A stretch of 64,000 bases of DNA. It comes from Desulfuromonadaceae bacterium. GTDB taxonomy: Bacteria > Desulfobacterota > Desulfuromonadia > Geobacterales > Pseudopelobacteraceae. This document shows, one piece after another, positions 5,882 through 15,876 of the stretch (position 1 is its first letter; every line of letters starts with the position of its first letter). The position numbers and the translations under genes are program-made. The notes under the pieces were generated by a model that was not told the DNA's origin, ran no database searches, and saw only the letters and a list, made by a program, of their open reading frames with translations. Location of the stretch: positions 1-64,000 of the forward strand of contig JAQUHA010000005.1 of NCBI GenBank assembly GCA_028683855.1, read 5' to 3'.

Positions 5882-7399
5882 ATGGGCGTAATCACCTGGC
5901 TTGCTCAAAAACTGAACCCGGCAACTCCAGCACCTCAACAGAGAGCGTATGCTGGCGCACGGCTAGACCGTCTCTCCACCGCTTTTGGTTTCGGCGGTAA
6001 TCAGTCCGTAGACGCCGGTTTGAGGTTTGCGCTGCCTACCCTGCGAAATCGTTCACGGGATCTTGCGGAAAATAACGACTACATCGCCGGGTATCTTGAA
6101 CTGCTTGGCAATAAGGTGATTGGTGCGACCGGTATCCGCTTACAGGTAAAAAGCCGGGGCGGTGACGGTAAGTTGGATCGTGAAGCTAACAATGCTATCG
6201 AGTCCGCGTGGAAAGCATGGGGCAAAAAAGGAATTTGCGATGTAACAGGCAAACTTTCATGGGTTGAGCTTCAACGGCTCTCCCTGATTAGTATGGCACG
6301 GGACGGTGAAGTTTTTATCCGTATTGTAAAACAGCTCCGAATCAATAAATTCAACTTTGCTCTGCAATTGATTGAAGCCGATCAGGTAGATATCAACAAA
6401 AACGACATACTGTCAAACGGCAACATCATCCGCATGGGTGTCGAGCTCAACCAGTGGGGCAAACCGGTTGCCTATCATGTTTTTGAAACTCACCCGGGAG
6501 ATATAAATCTTGGTGCTGGAACTCAGTTTAAAACCATCCGTATCTCTGCCGATGAAATGATCCACCTCTATCGCCAGCTCCGCCCTGGACAGACTCGCGG
6601 GGTACCATGGACAGCAGCAGTAATGACCAGGCTACATCATATGGGAGCATACGAAGAGGCGGCGATTATAAACGCCCGTTTCGGTGCCTCAAAAATGGGC
6701 TTTTATACGAAAAACGCGGGCGCTGGCGATTTGCCCTCAGACGGTAAAGACGAATCTGGAAACCTGATCAGCGAAGTTGAGCCGGGCCAACTGGAAGTAT
6801 TACCGGAAGGTTATGACATAAAGACGTTTGATCCGACTTATCCCTCCAATGAGTATGACCCATTTATCAAGCGTCAAGTCAAGGGTGCCAGCTGCGGCCT
6901 GCCTGGCGCGACTTATTCCGATCTTTCAAACGATCTGGAAAGTGTCAACTTTTCCAGTATCCGTCAAGGCACTCTAAACGCCCGTGATTCATACCGTGCT
7001 CTACAGCAGTTGATGATCGACATTCTCTGTATCCCTATTTATGAACTATGGCTCGGTCAGTCACTGGATTTCGGTCTGTTGGTAATTATCAGCAATAAAC
7101 GCGGCCCGAACGTCACACTGCCTGCTGGCAATTATGACAAATACAACACCCCGCTTTTTGTTGGTCGCGGTTGGGATTGGGTTGATCCACTGAAAGATCA
7201 AAAAGCCAACAGCGAAGCACTTTTGAACAACCTGACAACCCGCACCAGAATAGCCGCCGAATGTGGCGAAGATTTCGAGGAAATTCTAGCAGAACGCGCG
7301 CAAGAAAATGAACTTGCTGAATCTTTCGGAATCAGCCTTGACCCGCTGCCTACTACGCAGACAACAGGAGACACCAATAATGCAAACGCAAACCCTTAA
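5882..7399 (+). CDS. Phage portal protein, lambda family
   Basis: LPTLRNRSRDLAENNDYIAGYLELLGNKVIGATGIRL...RDGEVFIRI...DEMIHLYRQLRPGQTRGVPWTAAVMTRLHHMGAYEEAAI: lambda gpB-like. Confidence 0.9.
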   Translation: MGVITWLAQKLNPATPAPQQRAYAGARLDRLSTAFGFGGNQSVDAGLRFALPTLRNRSRDLAENNDYIAGYLELLGNKVIGATGIRLQVKSRGGDGKLDREANNAIESAWKAWGKKGICDVTGKLSWVELQRLSLISMARDGEVFIRIVKQLRINKFNFALQLIEADQVDINKNDILSNGNIIRMGVELNQWGKPVAYHVFETHPGDINLGAGTQFKTIRISADEMIHLYRQLRPGQTRGVPWTAAVMTRLHHMGAYEEAAIINARFGASKMGFYTKNAGAGDLPSDGKDESGNLISEVEPGQLEVLPEGYDIKTFDPTYPSNEYDPFIKRQVKGASCGLPGATYSDLSNDLESVNFSSIRQGTLNARDSYRALQQLMIDILCIPIYELWLGQSLDFGLLVIISNKRGPNVTLPAGNYDKYNTPLFVGRGWDWVDPLKDQKANSEALLNNLTTRTRIAAECGEDFEEILAERAQENELAESFGISLDPLPTTQTTGDTNNANANP

Positions 7400-9251
7400 A
7401 ACCGGCACCATGTTCCGTTCGTTCGGCATTAACCGTGCGGCGATAAATGTAGAGAGCCGTAGTATTGAAATCTCATTCTCAAGTGAAGCCCCGGTAGAGC
7501 GCTGGTTTGGCACCGAAATACTTGACCATGCTCCCGGCTCCGTCCGGCTTGATCGCATAAAAACAGGTGGCCCCCTGTTGATGGATCACTGCCGCGATGA
7601 TCAGGTCGGTGTTGTTGAGGATGTTGCCATCACAGCAGATAGAAAAGGTCGTGCAATCGTTCGCTTTGGCAAGAGCGTTGATGCAGAGGAAATCTATCAG
7701 GATGTGTTGGACGGTATCAGGCAGAACGTATCAGTAGGATATGTAATCCACAAAATGGAAGTTGAAGAACCTGAAGGAATGAACCCGGTCTACCGTGCTA
7801 CCGATTGGGAACCGCTGGAAATCAGCATCGTATCAGTCCCGGCAGATATCAGCGTCGGTGTCGGGCGCAGCGCAGACGAAACCGCCCACGAAACAGCAAT
7901 CATATGCAGAAACCTACCAAAAAAGGAGATTCAAAAAATGGAAACTCAAACCGTTGATTTACAGGCAGTAAGAACAGAAGAGCGCAACAAAGAACTGGCT
8001 AGAGTCCGTGACATTATCGCCATCGGTTCACGCCAGAAACTTGATGACCTGGCACGCCAGTTTGTTGAAAACGGAAAAGGTGTTGACGAATTCCGAAGTG
8101 CTGTAATTGAAGCCATGGAAGCTCGTGGCGAAATCAAGAAGGTAACGACAACTGCAGAGATCGGCATGGGTGAGCGCGATGTTAAAGAATACAGCCTGCT
8201 CCGCGCCATCAACGCCATGGCCAATCCTAATGACCGTAAAGCGCAGGAAGCAGCTGCTTTTGAATTTGAAACCAGCCGCGCAGTTGCTGATGGCCTCAAG
8301 CGTTCGCCACAGGGTTTCTTTATCCCTGCTGAAGTCCAGAAGCGTGATCTGGTTGTCGGTACTACAACCGCTGGCGGATTCACAAAGCAGACCACCGTAC
8401 TCGGCGGGTCATTTATTGATCTTCTCCGCAACCGTATGATGGTCAATAAAATGGGTGCAACTACTCTGACCGGTCTGGTTGGCGATATCGCCATCCCTTC
8501 TCTTTCCGGTGGAGCGACTGCCTACTGGGTAGCAGAAAACGGCGCACCGACAGAAAGCCAGCAGACATTTGGACAAGTTGCGCTTGCCCCCAAAACTGTC
8601 GGCGCATTTACAGACATCAGCCGCAAATTGCTTTTGCAGTCCAGCGTTGATGTAGAAAGCCTCGTCACAATGGACCTGGCCAATGTTGTCGCTCACGCTC
8701 TTGATCTCGCGGCGCTTCACGGTACTGGATCAGGCAACAATCAGCCAACAGGCATTGCAGGCACCTCCGGTATAGGTTCAGTTGCTGGCGGAACAGACGG
8801 CGCTGCTCCTACTTTTGCCAACATGATCAGCCTCTGGTCAGAAGTAGCAATTGACAATGCCGATTTCGGCAGTCTCGGTTTTCTCACAAACAGCAAAGTC
8901 ATCGGCAAACTTATGTCAACGCTGAAAGTACCGACCTATGGCAATGACTTCATCGTTAACGCCTTCCCTGATGCTGAAGGAATCACCAATATTCACGGTT
9001 CGCGCTGCGGTGTCTCCAATCAGGTATCCAGCGCACTGACAAAAGGTGGCTCCGGCGCGGTTGCTTCGGCAATCTTTTTTGGCAACTGGTCAGATCTCAT
9101 CATCGGTCAGTGGGGTGGTGTTGATGTTCTTGTTGATCCTTACACCGGCGGCGCGGCTGGCACAGTTCGCGTCCGTGTTCTTCAGGATGCCGATGTCGCA
9201 GTTCGTCACGCCTCCAGCTTCAGCGCAATGCTTGACGCACTGACCGCGTAA
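7380..9251 (+). CDS. HK97-type prohead protease fused to HK97-fold major capsid protein
   Basis: ATG 7380 after CAGGAG. N-terminal protease motifs LLMDHCRDDQVG, NVSVGYVIHKME, WEPLEISIVSVPAD. C-terminal MCP motifs GGFTKQTTVLGGSFIDLLRNRMMV, AYWVAENGAPTESQQTFGQVALAPKTVGAFTDISRKLLLQS. Confidence 0.9.
   Translation: MQTQTLKTGTMFRSFGINRAAINVESRSIEISFSSEAPVERWFGTEILDHAPGSVRLDRIKTGGPLLMDHCRDDQVGVVEDVAITADRKGRAIVRFGKSVDAEEIYQDVLDGIRQNVSVGYVIHKMEVEEPEGMNPVYRATDWEPLEISIVSVPADISVGVGRSADETAHETAIICRNLPKKEIQKMETQTVDLQAVRTEERNKELARVRDIIAIGSRQKLDDLARQFVENGKGVDEFRSAVIEAMEARGEIKKVTTTAEIGMGERDVKEYSLLRAINAMANPNDRKAQEAAAFEFETSRAVADGLKRSPQGFFIPAEVQKRDLVVGTTTAGGFTKQTTVLGGSFIDLLRNRMMVNKMGATTLTGLVGDIAIPSLSGGATAYWVAENGAPTESQQTFGQVALAPKTVGAFTDISRKLLLQSSVDVESLVTMDLANVVAHALDLAALHGTGSGNNQPTGIAGTSGIGSVAGGTDGAAPTFANMISLWSEVAIDNADFGSLGFLTNSKVIGKLMSTLKVPTYGNDFIVNAFPDAEGITNIHGSRCGVSNQVSSALTKGGSGAVASAIFFGNWSDLIIGQWGGVDVLVDPYTGGAAGTVRVRVLQDADVAVRHASSFSAMLDALTA
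7923..7940 (+). promoter_or_regulatory. Internal ribosome-binding site and in-frame ATG for free major capsid protein
   Basis: AAGGAGAT at 7923-7930, ATG at 7938-7940, in frame with the 7380 ORF, at the junction of protease and capsid domains. Confidence 0.65.
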
Positions 9252-10180: not shown

Positions 10181-10398
10181 TGCACGATCCAACATGGTTT
10201 GAACATGTCGATCTAATGCAGACAATGATGGGGAGTCTGTTCCTCATTTTAGGCTGGTTTATGATCCGCACTCTGCACAGCATTGAGAAATCAATCGGGA
10301 TTCTGTTTAAAAAATATGAAGAGATTGACAAAAATCATGACGCGCTGCGCGGTGAATTCAACCAGTTACGGGGCGAACATATAGCGAGGCACAGCTGA
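10180..10398 (+). CDS. Small membrane protein, candidate holin
   Basis: ATG at 10180 overlapping the previous TGA. MHDPTWFEHVDLMQTMMGSLFLILGWFMIRTLHSIEKSIGILFKKYEEIDKNH...: one TM helix then charged coil, directly upstream of the endolysin. Confidence 0.5.
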   Translation: MHDPTWFEHVDLMQTMMGSLFLILGWFMIRTLHSIEKSIGILFKKYEEIDKNHDALRGEFNQLRGEHIARHS

Positions 10399-11000
10399 TG
10401 AGCAACTTTGACAACGCATACAAGCGCACCATAAATACCGAGGGTGGCTACGCCAATGACCCGCGTGACCGTGGCGGCGAAACTTATAAAGGGGTCTCCC
10501 GCAACAACTGGCCCCGCTGGTCTGGTTGGCGGATCGTTGACGGAGTGAAGAACAACCTGGTCAAACAACCACCGCACGGCACTCCGGAATATAGAAACTG
10601 GGTGCGTGAACTGAACCGCCAGCTGGCTGGCAGTCCACTGCTGCAGAACGCTGTCATGGCGTTTTACAAGAATAACTTTTGGGGCAACCTGGGCGAAATA
10701 ACCGATCAACGCGTGGCGGAGGAGCTTTTCGACAAGCGCGTCAACTGCGGTGATGTCGCCTGCAGATGGATACAGCGTGCCGCTGCTGTTGTCGCTGATG
10801 GCACCATCGGCCCCAAAAGCCTTGCCGCGATTAACGCCGCCGATCCGGCTGCGCTGCTCAGCAAGTTTAACGATGCCGCCTTCCATTATTACGAAGGGCT
10901 GATCAGGGTGGATTCGTCACAGGCTGTCTTTCGTAACTCCTGGTATGGCCGCCTGAAAAATTATGACGGCAGTCAGTTTGATACGGAGGGGGTCGCCTGA
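10398..11000 (+). CDS. Endolysin, glycosyl hydrolase family 108 (N-acetylmuramidase-like)
   Basis: NTEGGYANDPRDRGGETYKGVSR: GH108 signature EGGY.NDP.D.GG.T..G; C-terminal domain with FRNSWYGR. Confidence 0.85.
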   Translation: MSNFDNAYKRTINTEGGYANDPRDRGGETYKGVSRNNWPRWSGWRIVDGVKNNLVKQPPHGTPEYRNWVRELNRQLAGSPLLQNAVMAFYKNNFWGNLGEITDQRVAEELFDKRVNCGDVACRWIQRAAAVVADGTIGPKSLAAINAADPAALLSKFNDAAFHYYEGLIRVDSSQAVFRNSWYGRLKNYDGSQFDTEGVA

Positions 11001-11632: not shown

Positions 11633-12718
11633 ATGTCAGTCAAACAGTATGTAGCACTCAGCGAACAGGCAGCACGGACAGCACTTGACGGCTCTCCGGC
11701 GTATCTGTTTTACCCGGTCAAGGGCAAGCTCGAACCGGAGCCGGATTTTAAGGAAGATGCCGTCAAAGAGTGGCGGGCGCAGGATACTGCCCAGGGCGAC
11801 ACCTCAGATGAGCGAACCTCAACCGCGTGGAAATACTCTCTGGAAGGGCGAATCTATCCGGGTGACGAACTTGCCCTGCTGATGCGGCATCTGCTCGGTT
11901 ATGCCGACACAGCGGTTGCACTCGATGCTCCAAACGCTGCCGCCTCACTCCAGATGTTCCGCACAGCAACAGAGATGTACGGCGATGACGCGCAGAATCT
12001 TGACAAAGCCCTTGCCATCATCCCCAACACCGCAAAAGGCACCAGCACCTACAGTCAGGCCTTTGTCGGTGGCCGTCCGAATAGCGCAGAGCTCAACTTC
12101 AAAGGTGGCGATGCCGCAGAGATAAAAATCAATCTCACCGGCGGCCCGTGGATCGGTGCTGTCGAACAGACAGCCATTGCCGGTGTTGCCTTTCCTGCCG
12201 CCAAAGCATTCCGCAGCGTGCCGAAAGTCTATCTCGGCTCTGGTGCAACTCTTACCGGCACCGCTCCGGATTACACCGATTTTACAGCCGGCACCATGGC
12301 GCTGGTCAAACCTGATGATCTGATGATCAAACTGGAGCCGGGCATTGAGGACGTCTACAAAATGAACGGCATCGAAGGGCCGTCCGTTACCGAACGCAAA
12401 AAGCAGTGGTCACTATCTATCGAGTACACCCACGACTTCTCTGATCCTGCCTCCGGCTGGTCTTCTTATGATGCCTGGGCGGCACGTTTTGCCGATATTC
12501 AGTATCTCCCCTGCATGATCATACTGGACAGCAGCGAAGTGATTCCTTCCTGCTCCACCCAGACGTACCAGCTGGCATTCTATCTGCCAAAAATGAAGCT
12601 TACCGTCGATATGCCAGACCGGAAAAACGACGGCAGCAAGAGCAAGACCAAAGTCAAGCTCGAAAGCCGCGTCGATGCCTCAGTCAACGTCGCCGCCTTC
12701 GCCAAGCTGATTTATTGA
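11633..12718 (+). CDS. Putative phage tail tube protein
   Basis: 361 aa; acidic beta-rich (RTSTAWKYSLEGRIYPGDELALLMRHLLG...); immediately upstream of tail chaperone and tape measure genes. Confidence 0.6.
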   Translation: MSVKQYVALSEQAARTALDGSPAYLFYPVKGKLEPEPDFKEDAVKEWRAQDTAQGDTSDERTSTAWKYSLEGRIYPGDELALLMRHLLGYADTAVALDAPNAAASLQMFRTATEMYGDDAQNLDKALAIIPNTAKGTSTYSQAFVGGRPNSAELNFKGGDAAEIKINLTGGPWIGAVEQTAIAGVAFPAAKAFRSVPKVYLGSGATLTGTAPDYTDFTAGTMALVKPDDLMIKLEPGIEDVYKMNGIEGPSVTERKKQWSLSIEYTHDFSDPASGWSSYDAWAARFADIQYLPCMIILDSSEVIPSCSTQTYQLAFYLPKMKLTVDMPDRKNDGSKSKTKVKLESRVDASVNVAAFAKLIY

Positions 12719-12797
12719 TAACCCCTCCCAGCCTCCCCTTAAATAAGGGGAGGAGCTTTTAACCCTCCCCTTTATTTAAGGGGGACTGAGGGGGTTA
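12719..12797. repeat. MITE/REP-like palindromic element in the tail operon
   Basis: Outer imperfect inverted repeat TAACCCCTCCCAGCCTCCCCTTAAATAAGG / CCTTTATTTAAGGGGGACTGAGGGGGTTA, with an inner perfect palindrome CCTCCCCTTA-AA-TAAGGGGAGG. Confidence 0.7.
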
Positions 12798-12823: not shown

Positions 12824-13225
12824 ATGAAAGTCAACAGCCGAAACCATGTATACCGTTACACCCCGAATTTCCTTGATAACCGCCAGCTCCCCGCTGATCA
12901 GCAGATCGTTATCAGTCTCCGTGCCGTGACTTCCCCGGATGAGGATGACTATCAGCGTGAAGCTCTGGCAAACCTCCGCACCTTTGCCCCTGATAAAGCC
13001 CAGGAGCTGAACGAAGCGCGTCACCGCAAGCTGATTACAGAGAAGTTTGTCTGCGTTGAAGGGTTGGAGATTGGCGGGCTGGAAGGTAAACCGCTTGACT
13101 ATGACACCTTCTATGCCGAAGCTCCGGCGGAGATCGTCAACGAAGTGCTCCGGGCGATCAGATCCGTGGAGATGCTGACCAACGGTGAACAAAAAAACTT
13201 CTTGCCGGTGCCAGATGGTCACTAA
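12824..13225 (+). CDS. Tail assembly chaperone, short (0-frame) product; lambda gpG analogue
   Basis: 133 aa ORF directly upstream of the tape measure gene, containing a slippery site near its 3' end. Confidence 0.7.
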   Translation: MKVNSRNHVYRYTPNFLDNRQLPADQQIVISLRAVTSPDEDDYQREALANLRTFAPDKAQELNEARHRKLITEKFVCVEGLEIGGLEGKPLDYDTFYAEAPAEIVNEVLRAIRSVEMLTNGEQKNFLPVPDGH

Positions 13226-13635
13226 TCTGCTCCGGCGCGAATGGCCCACCGTTTAACTGTAAAGAGTGTGACGAGGATCAGCGGGAGGAGCGCAACTGCG
13301 GCAACCGCAAAAAGCTCCTGCACGAAATCCTGACCAGTGATGAATGGGAGCAGGTGGATCTCAGCTACCACGATCACGAAGTCCGTAAAATTGAAGACCT
13401 GAAGTTTTTTGCCTGTCCGGTCAGCACCATAACCGGAAACACATGGGAGCTGATGCGACAGGTTAACCTCTGCTGCAACGCCGCTGGGGAAATCAAGCAC
13501 CTCCCCGAACCTGATCTTTCCATACTGGATCAGTCGCCCCGTTTCCTCCGGGCGGTCGAAATTATCAGAAGCGAGCGCAACAGTGAATGGTTTTACGAAC
13601 TGCAGCAGAAATGGGCAAAAGCAAAAGCGGGGTAA
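12824..13635 (+). CDS. Predicted -1 frameshift fusion tail chaperone; lambda gpG-T analogue (about 270 aa)
   Basis: 0-frame CAA AAA AAC (A-AAA-AAC at 13192-13198). The -1 frame is open from 13198 to TAA 13633-13635 (LLAGARWSLICSGANGPPFNCKECDEDQREERNCGNRKKLLHEIL...). Confidence 0.7.
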
Positions 13636-13638
13636 CCT

Positions 13639-15876
13639 ATGGCGGATAAAGAAGTAAAAACAAAACTGATTCTGCAGGGCGATGCCGGTGGCATGGTTGC
13701 CGCGATGGAGCGTGCCGATAAATCATTAAACGGCACTGTCAAACAGACTGATCTGCTGTCAGAGGCCGGAATGCGCTTAACCGGTGTGCTTGGTGGCATT
13801 GGTCTGGTTGCTTTGACCAAAGAGCTTTTAGACACTGGACTACAGCTTGAAAAGCTTACCCGGCTTTTTGTTGCAGCAACTGGATCAGCATCTCTTGCCG
13901 CACGTGAAATGGAGTATATCCGCCAACTGTCTGAGAAGATGGGTCTGTCGTTCCTCACTACAGCTGAATCATACGGCAAGTTTCTAGCCGCCACCCGCAA
14001 TACTTCGCTCGAAGGCGAAAAAGGGCGAAAAGTTTTTGAAGGTGTTACGACAGCGACAGTTGCCCTAGGTCTCTCAGCTGATGATACCAGCGGCATTTTC
14101 AACGCTCTCCAGCAGATGATCAGCAAAGGTAAAGTTCAGGCTGAAGAGTTGCGCGGTCAGCTGGGCGAACGTCTACCTGGTGCCTTCAAAATGGCTGCTG
14201 ATGCCATGGGTGTGACAACAGCTAAGCTCGACAAGATGCTGCAAAACGGTCAGGTTGTTGCTGGCGACCTCCTGCCGAAACTGGCTGCAGAGCTTGAAAG
14301 AACATTTAGCGGTGCCGCTGTAGATGGAGCAAAAAGTGCTCAGGCTGAGTTGAACAGATTCAATAATGCCATTTATGATTTAAAGTCCTCTACTGGCGCA
14401 GCGTTAATACCAGCATTAACGGAAATAACAAAAGGTTTAACCGGTCTCGTGCGGGATGGCATACAGCCTGTTGTCTCCGGTGCTATATCTGTTCAAGCGG
14501 AATTCATTCGTTTGGGAATGGTTGTTGATAAAGCGGGCGGCTCGCTTACTTCATTCAATTATGCGTTTTACAAAACCGCAGAGATTGCAACCCGGTTTGT
14601 CACGTTGGGGCAGTTTGGTGACTCACTAAAAAACGCCGCTGAGAATGCTGACAAATACAACAAAATGTATGAACAGCGTTACTCAGATAAAGATTCTCGC
14701 CTTCAGCAATTAGCGGAGACCGAGCAGCGGCTGTTGAACTCAATGAGTTTAAAAGGGAGCGATTATACGTCGGCTGAGTTGCTGGCACAGCAAGCAAATG
14801 CAAGAGCCGGTGGTAGCGCTTCCTCAAAAGTAGCTAAAGGTGCCAAGCCGGTTGATCTTCTCCTGGAACAGATCAAAACCTATCAACGCGACAGGGAGAA
14901 AATCAACACGATCCTGATTGCTGAATCCTCTGCCCTTGAGTCTGGCGGTGCGTTTTCAGCAGCGGCTTTTAATACTGAACTCTCCACCGGCTCCCGCTAC
15001 AAAAAAAGCGGCTCTTTAAGTCTGCTCGGCAGCGGCATTAATACCGTACGGCAAGACCCGATCTCAAATGATGACCTTATAACAATAAACGCATCTCAAT
15101 CGCAGTGGGTTGCCAAACAGACAGAGATGCAGCAACAGGCGTTGGAGTCAAAGCGTTCTTTTAATGTAGAGATGGCAGCAATGCGTGGAGATTATTTGCA
15201 GCAGGAACTTTTTGATCTGGACAATCAACAGGCAGATATGGAACGCAGATGGGCAATGAATACCGACAGTTTTGCGGAGTATGAATCGAGAAAAACGCAG
15301 ATACAGACAATGTTCGATCAGAAACGTGGGGCAGCATCAATTAATAATGAACAGAGACTTGCTCAGACAAAACTACAGACGAACCAGAACTATATGAATG
15401 CTTTCGGATCAGTTTTACAGGCAATAAATACGTTAGCAGGCGATAAATATAAAATATTATTCCTATTGACACAAGGAGCAGCTCTTGCAACAACTTTTTC
15501 AGCTACTCAGGCAGCCTCCGCTTCTGCGCTGGCTCCACCCCCACTCGGTTTAGGACCAGTTGCCGGAGCACCACTGGCTGCATCAATAGAAATCGCGGGT
15601 TATGCGGCAATGGGTGCAATAGCAGCCACCACGGTTGCCGGTATGGTTGGAGGTAGAGGTGGTAATGTTTCGGGCATCTCTGCAGGTTCATTCTCTTCCC
15701 CCGGCTCGGATTTTGTCACTCAGCCTCTGGCACCTACCCAGCAATCCCCCTCGATCAACGTCACGATGAACTTTGACGGAACCACCCTAGTTGACGAACA
15801 GAAGCTCACCCGCTGGAGCGAGGATGTCCTGATCCCGTCCCTGCGTGAACTTAAAACCAGAGGAGTAACAGCATGA
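13639..15876 (+). CDS. Phage tail tape measure protein
   Basis: 745 aa; N-terminal tape measure domain (LTKELLDTGLQLEKLTRLFVAATGS...MGLSFLTTAESYGKFLAATRNTSLEGEKGRKVFEGV...RGQLGERLPGAFKMAADAMGVTTAKLDKMLQNGQV). Confidence 0.9.
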   Translation: MADKEVKTKLILQGDAGGMVAAMERADKSLNGTVKQTDLLSEAGMRLTGVLGGIGLVALTKELLDTGLQLEKLTRLFVAATGSASLAAREMEYIRQLSEKMGLSFLTTAESYGKFLAATRNTSLEGEKGRKVFEGVTTATVALGLSADDTSGIFNALQQMISKGKVQAEELRGQLGERLPGAFKMAADAMGVTTAKLDKMLQNGQVVAGDLLPKLAAELERTFSGAAVDGAKSAQAELNRFNNAIYDLKSSTGAALIPALTEITKGLTGLVRDGIQPVVSGAISVQAEFIRLGMVVDKAGGSLTSFNYAFYKTAEIATRFVTLGQFGDSLKNAAENADKYNKMYEQRYSDKDSRLQQLAETEQRLLNSMSLKGSDYTSAELLAQQANARAGGSASSKVAKGAKPVDLLLEQIKTYQRDREKINTILIAESSALESGGAFSAAAFNTELSTGSRYKKSGSLSLLGSGINTVRQDPISNDDLITINASQSQWVAKQTEMQQQALESKRSFNVEMAAMRGDYLQQELFDLDNQQADMERRWAMNTDSFAEYESRKTQIQTMFDQKRGAASINNEQRLAQTKLQTNQNYMNAFGSVLQAINTLAGDKYKILFLLTQGAALATTFSATQAASASALAPPPLGLGPVAGAPLAASIEIAGYAAMGAIAATTVAGMVGGRGGNVSGISAGSFSSPGSDFVTQPLAPTQQSPSINVTMNFDGTTLVDEQKLTRWSEDVLIPSLRELKTRGVTA

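Follow-up and report, generated by a model that had tools for sequence, protein, structure and literature searches.

Two overlapping reading frames between a putative major tail protein gene and a tape measure gene are, taken as a whole, best explained (with a probability of about 0.95) by a programmed -1 ribosomal slip that yields lambda-type G and G-T tail chaperones. They lie in a stretch of 64,000 nt from a Desulfuromonadaceae bacterium (GCA_028683855.1, contig JAQUHA010000005.1, positions 1 to 64,000, forward strand), hereafter the window. The slip is supported, as far as sequence comparison can tell, by the conservation of the slip site, of a hairpin 3' of it and of gene order, and by selection that acts on the protein sequence of the -1 frame, beginning at the junction.

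Slip site and downstream hairpin

The first frame (12824..13225, + strand) would encode a gpG-like tail assembly chaperone of 133 aa, a role suggested by its position. Within it, positions 13190-13201 read CAA AAA AAC TTC in frame and contain the -1 slippery heptamer A AAA AAC (13192..13198, + strand), as the earlier note had claimed. The TAA that ends the short product (13223..13225, + strand) lies 24 nt past the heptamer. In the -1 frame, 148 codons are open from 13189, just after TGA 13186-13188, up to TAA 13633-13635. The resulting G-T fusion would comprise 270 aa and stop 3 nt short of the tape measure ATG at 13639, in agreement with the uninterrupted frame and the fusion of about 270 aa proposed earlier. 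The first ATG, GTG or TTG of the window's -1 frame is GTG 13354, a codon that the earlier note had given as ATG, its sole factual slip. Against the background of the window, where 97 ORFs of at least 100 aa contain 98 in-frame X XXY YYZ heptamers, four of the 98 open into a -1 run of at least 60 codons, and that at 13192-13198 is the sole one at a tail-gene junction.

Single-sequence queries (P0001 and P0002) retrieved no homologue from genome contigs, phage records or genomes of the same family and order, nor did a single-sequence query with P0001 only retrieve one from viral contigs. When the joined protein was used as query across the class, four more genomes yielded homologues; a profile built on the extension gave seven strong ones in the wider phylum (an eighth, weak match was left out), and scans of IMG/VR virus contigs added further ones. 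After removal of duplicates, the final set held 21 distinct loci, namely the window and 20 others from same-phylum genomes and IMG/VR contigs, including one Desulfobacteraceae MAG and one Desulfuromonadales MAG. Their aligned extensions are 29 to 71% identical to that of the window.

The heptamer AAAAAAC is found exactly at the junction and in the same register in 21/21 distinct loci, while the base preceding it varies (A, G or T). As expected of a programmed -1 site, it stands upstream of the 0-frame stop in every locus, at a distance of 0 to 24 nt; many relatives have the stop codon immediately after it (A AAA AAC TGA). Homologues lacking the heptamer, which the earlier note had named as evidence against a slip, were sought among the distinct loci with an extension, and none was found. 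A AAA AAC is invariant even though 14 of the 21 gene pairs use AAA as their less frequent Lys codon. The joint chance of finding AAA AAC in all loci is 10^-12.5 as a product of the Lys and Asn codon frequencies of each gene pair, a figure that ignores kinship and overstates the surprise because the relatedness of the loci is left in. A pattern search for tRNA-Lys genes, which may miss genes, recovered only tRNA-Lys(UUU) from the window's genome, whereas some distant hosts gave UUU as well as CUU. Because tRNA-Lys sets differ among hosts, the use of AAC is not a simple consequence of the tRNA set.

A natural control is offered by a second G homologue in genome G243 (L029, 4146-4589, - strand, E = 9e-30): it lacks a heptamer at the equivalent site, shows no detectable extension and is immediately followed by a tape-measure-like ORF. 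The phage in question seems to manage without a T domain.

In a more distant group of loci (L030-L036, L047 and L048), a GAGGG lies about 6 nt upstream of the heptamer and resembles the internal Shine-Dalgarno stimulator of dnaX. Such an upstream dnaX-like stimulator is absent from the window, GAGGG being mainly confined to this group.

On the 3' side, a candidate stimulatory stem-loop (13203..13237, + strand) starts 4-5 nt past the heptamer in the window, where GCCGG 13204-13208 pairs with CCGGC 13232-13236 and an inner stem is added. Its folding energy is -17.4 kcal/mol (z = -3.0 against dinucleotide shuffles). Taken alone, it is no better than synonymous-codon shuffles (z = -0.17), and the signal of selection for the hairpin therefore comes from the relatives. 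Over all loci, the mean MFE of the 53 nt past the heptamer is -24.1 kcal/mol, versus -10 to -16 at the other sampled offsets, and 20/21 loci fold better than synonymous-codon redraws (Stouffer z = -11.5, which is not a strict significance because the loci are related). The predicted strong hairpin begins at +5 to +8 from the heptamer in 20 of the 21 loci, a stimulatory structure being expected about 5-9 nt downstream; the exception, L046, has weak structure only. The stem proposed in the earlier note is real, with a counterpart at the same place in all loci but that one. Pair types vary at equivalent positions (C-G, G-C or A-U at +14; A-U or C-G at +15), in counts that lean towards pairing because they were taken from each sequence's own best fold. 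An alternative hairpin, GTGCC...GGTCAC, which had also been put forward, proved weak (-5.5, z = -0.7), and the conserved structure is the main hairpin.

Gene setting and comparison with known systems

Judged from the genes around the frameshift locus, the phage type is that of a lambda-like siphophage module, with a terminase of gpA type, a portal of the lambda family, a prohead protease with capsid and a head-tail attachment protein, after which come the putative tube protein, G, T and the tape measure. The putative major tail (tube) protein (11633..12718, + strand) lies directly 5' of the chaperone gene; it has no Pfam or PHROG match and owes this putative assignment to its position. Each of the 20 other loci has a homologue of it immediately upstream of G (E = 1e-193 to 1e-23). 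On the other side, the tape measure protein (745 aa, 13639..15876, + strand) matches Pfam PF20155 TMP_3 (E = 4.8e-26) and PHROG tape measure families. In every locus T is followed by an ORF that occupies the place of the tape measure, and in eight its similarity to the window's tape measure is detectable. The lambda-type order major tail protein - G - T - tape measure, with the tube identified by position, is conserved, and the earlier comparison with the genetic position of lambda G-GT holds.

Several other features of the region were recorded. Two linked palindromes, CCTCCCCTTAAATAAGGGG and CCTCCCCTTTATTTAAGGGG, lie at 12723-12794, 3' of the putative major tail protein gene and 5' of G, and similar ones are present at a few other sites in the same genome (contigs C29 and C48); they may represent a repeat element or an intergenic transcription attenuator. 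Within the head-to-tail module lies a glycosyl hydrolase 108 endolysin gene (10398-11000), preceded by head-tail joining genes and followed by the putative major tail protein gene. Adjoining it, and upstream of the latter gene, the DUF1353-like ORF 11000-11410 matches PHROG 1158, 'tail assembly chaperone' (E = 6e-24), a label that is probably misleading for this ORF. A single ORF at 7308-9251 comprises prohead protease and major capsid protein and overlaps the end of the portal gene, and a gene for the DNA polymerase III beta subunit (130-1314) lies near the prophage structural module.

The AF2 model of G has a pLDDT of 84 and no fold match in the PDB; a hit to YqbN (3klu) at E = 6 was rejected as evidence. 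Neither G nor T matched Pfam or PHROGs in any scanned member of the family. Because neither half resembles lambda gpG/gpT or solved tail chaperones, by sequence or by fold, the chaperone role is argued from position and architecture; such resemblance is not strictly defining, as these proteins diverge widely.

The lambda slip site is G_GGA_AAG, whereas the heptamer here is A_AAA_AAC. The two systems differ further in that G and T have no detectable similarity to lambda gpG and gpT, in that the extension, roughly equal to G in length, carries four invariant Cys, and in the strong conserved hairpin that follows the site. They are alike in having two ORFs at the same position, the first with a -1 slip close to its end; in lambda, G and GT lie between the major tail protein and the tape measure, and the fusion is a minor product (PMC5009743). 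The heptamer AAAAAAC has been reported in the tail chaperone genes of phiCbK (PMC3556154), vB_AbaS_Loki, IME_AB3 and the haloarchaeal HCTV-2 (PMC3556154; PMC5313236; PMC5009743), so that heptamer and genetic position are both identical to ours. In Acinetobacter phage Loki the heptamer also abuts the stop codon, as it does in many relatives here (PMC5313236). These phages differ in their proteins, G and T having no match among 50,697 phage records. The TMP_3-type tape measures of Pseudomonas phage B3 and other phages are about 38% identical in the N-terminal part; in contrast to the present loci, other genes intervene between the B3 chaperone and tape measure. Distant homology of G or T to the chaperone regions of B3, Stenotrophomonas Bhz60 and Caudoviricetes ctUtU524 was considered, and none was found.

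The -1 frame extension and alternative explanations

The T-like extension (13195..13635, + strand, -1 frame, stop TAA 13633-13635) carries a Cys motif, C-x2-C-x9-C...C. In an alignment of 14 sequences, C22, C25, C35 and C74 are invariant, and a Pro comes directly after the last. The codons of the first three lie at 13258..13299 (+ strand), all 5' of GTG 13354, and that of C74 at 13414..13416 (+ strand). The several Cys residues that the earlier note had picked out include C22, C25 and C35. Such invariant, spaced Cys residues are as expected of a metal site, such as that of a zinc-binding four-Cys domain, and the extension may bind metal. Its AF2 model has a pLDDT of 89, with no significant fold match in the PDB or BFVD and no match in NCBIfam.

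The downstream ORF might instead be an independent gene, translated either from a start of its own, GTG 13354, or by ribosomes that re-initiate once past the 0-frame stop; the ORF tool does call it from this GTG, immediately 5' of which lies GGGAGCAG. However, the codons between the 0-frame stop and the GTG (13225-13353) have a dN of 0.14-0.29 and a dS of at least 0.88 against three close relatives, which indicates purifying selection in the -1 frame before any start codon. Since C22, C25 and C35 are encoded upstream of it, a product started at GTG 13354 would be without most of the conserved motif. Across loci, the first ATG, GTG or TTG ranges from +12 to +255 from the heptamer, with no common start site and none that explains the extension, and in all strong matches the homology sets in right at the heptamer. 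Initiation at a separate start cannot substitute for the fusion, because selection in the -1 frame and three of the four invariant Cys precede the GTG, and the second ORF appears reachable only via a frameshift. This alternative is very improbable. We attach as little credence to transcriptional slippage joining the frames on the A run in place of ribosomal slippage: the run has seven A in the window and three close relatives, but six only in all other loci, and what is conserved is an in-register A AAA AAC together with, in 20/21 loci, a hairpin at the spacing of ribosomal frameshifting. Both were rejected on the evidence of selection, Cys residues, heptamer and hairpin.

A homopolymer run is also a classic site of assembly error, and the frame break could in principle reflect such an error or a decayed gene; the same break in every distinct homologue from other assemblies, and selection on the -1 side, leave this reading a negligible probability, and the homologues refute it. 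A different kind of objection accepts the -1 frameshift as real and gives G and G-T another job, for example as a minor virion component, in keeping with their lack of homology or fold match to known tail chaperones. The fixed place between major tail protein and tape measure and the -1 site late in the first gene argue against it, this arrangement matching those of lambda, P2 and phiCbK, and we regard it as unlikely. The preferred reading remains a programmed -1 slip producing tail chaperones.

Proposed mechanism and significance

According to this preferred reading, most ribosomes starting at 12824 would terminate at 13223 and release the 133-aa gpG-like chaperone. A minority reaching CAA AAA AAC would pause at the hairpin about 5 nt downstream, where tRNA-Lys and tRNA-Asn would slip one base back on A AAA AAC; these ribosomes would then read CTT CTT GCC in the -1 frame and continue to 13633, giving the 270-aa G-T fusion. 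The efficiency of slippage is presumably low. By analogy with lambda, many copies of G and few of G-T would coat the tape measure protein, to which G may bind, and the T domain, by binding the tube protein, would recruit it for polymerisation to length; both G and G-T would depart after assembly of the tube.

A more specific and tentative proposal, to which we give slightly less than even odds, is that the extension represents a new tail-tube recruitment fold held by a four-Cys metal site. It would belong to a phage lineage found in deltaproteobacterial hosts and among uncultured viruses and missing from the cultured phage record, which keeps the fixed A_AAA_AAC and a strong hairpin across hosts with differing tRNA-Lys sets.

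The G/G-T family is new; its mechanism and position are those of lambda G/GT, and the use of A_AAA_AAC has precedents. As the earlier note had anticipated, ordinary annotation would miss the fusion: the ORF tool lists the second half only from 13354, and ordinary ORF calling thereby loses a portion of the product in which three of the four invariant Cys lie. In E. coli, A_AAA_AAC is reported to be less slippery than A_AAA_AAG (PMC5009743), which counts against the proposed slip. The family offers a natural set of 21 sites, identical in heptamer and diverse in hairpin, on which A_AAA_AAC frameshifting could be studied in bacteria. The loci add a well-supported and uncatalogued family to the frameshifted tail chaperones.
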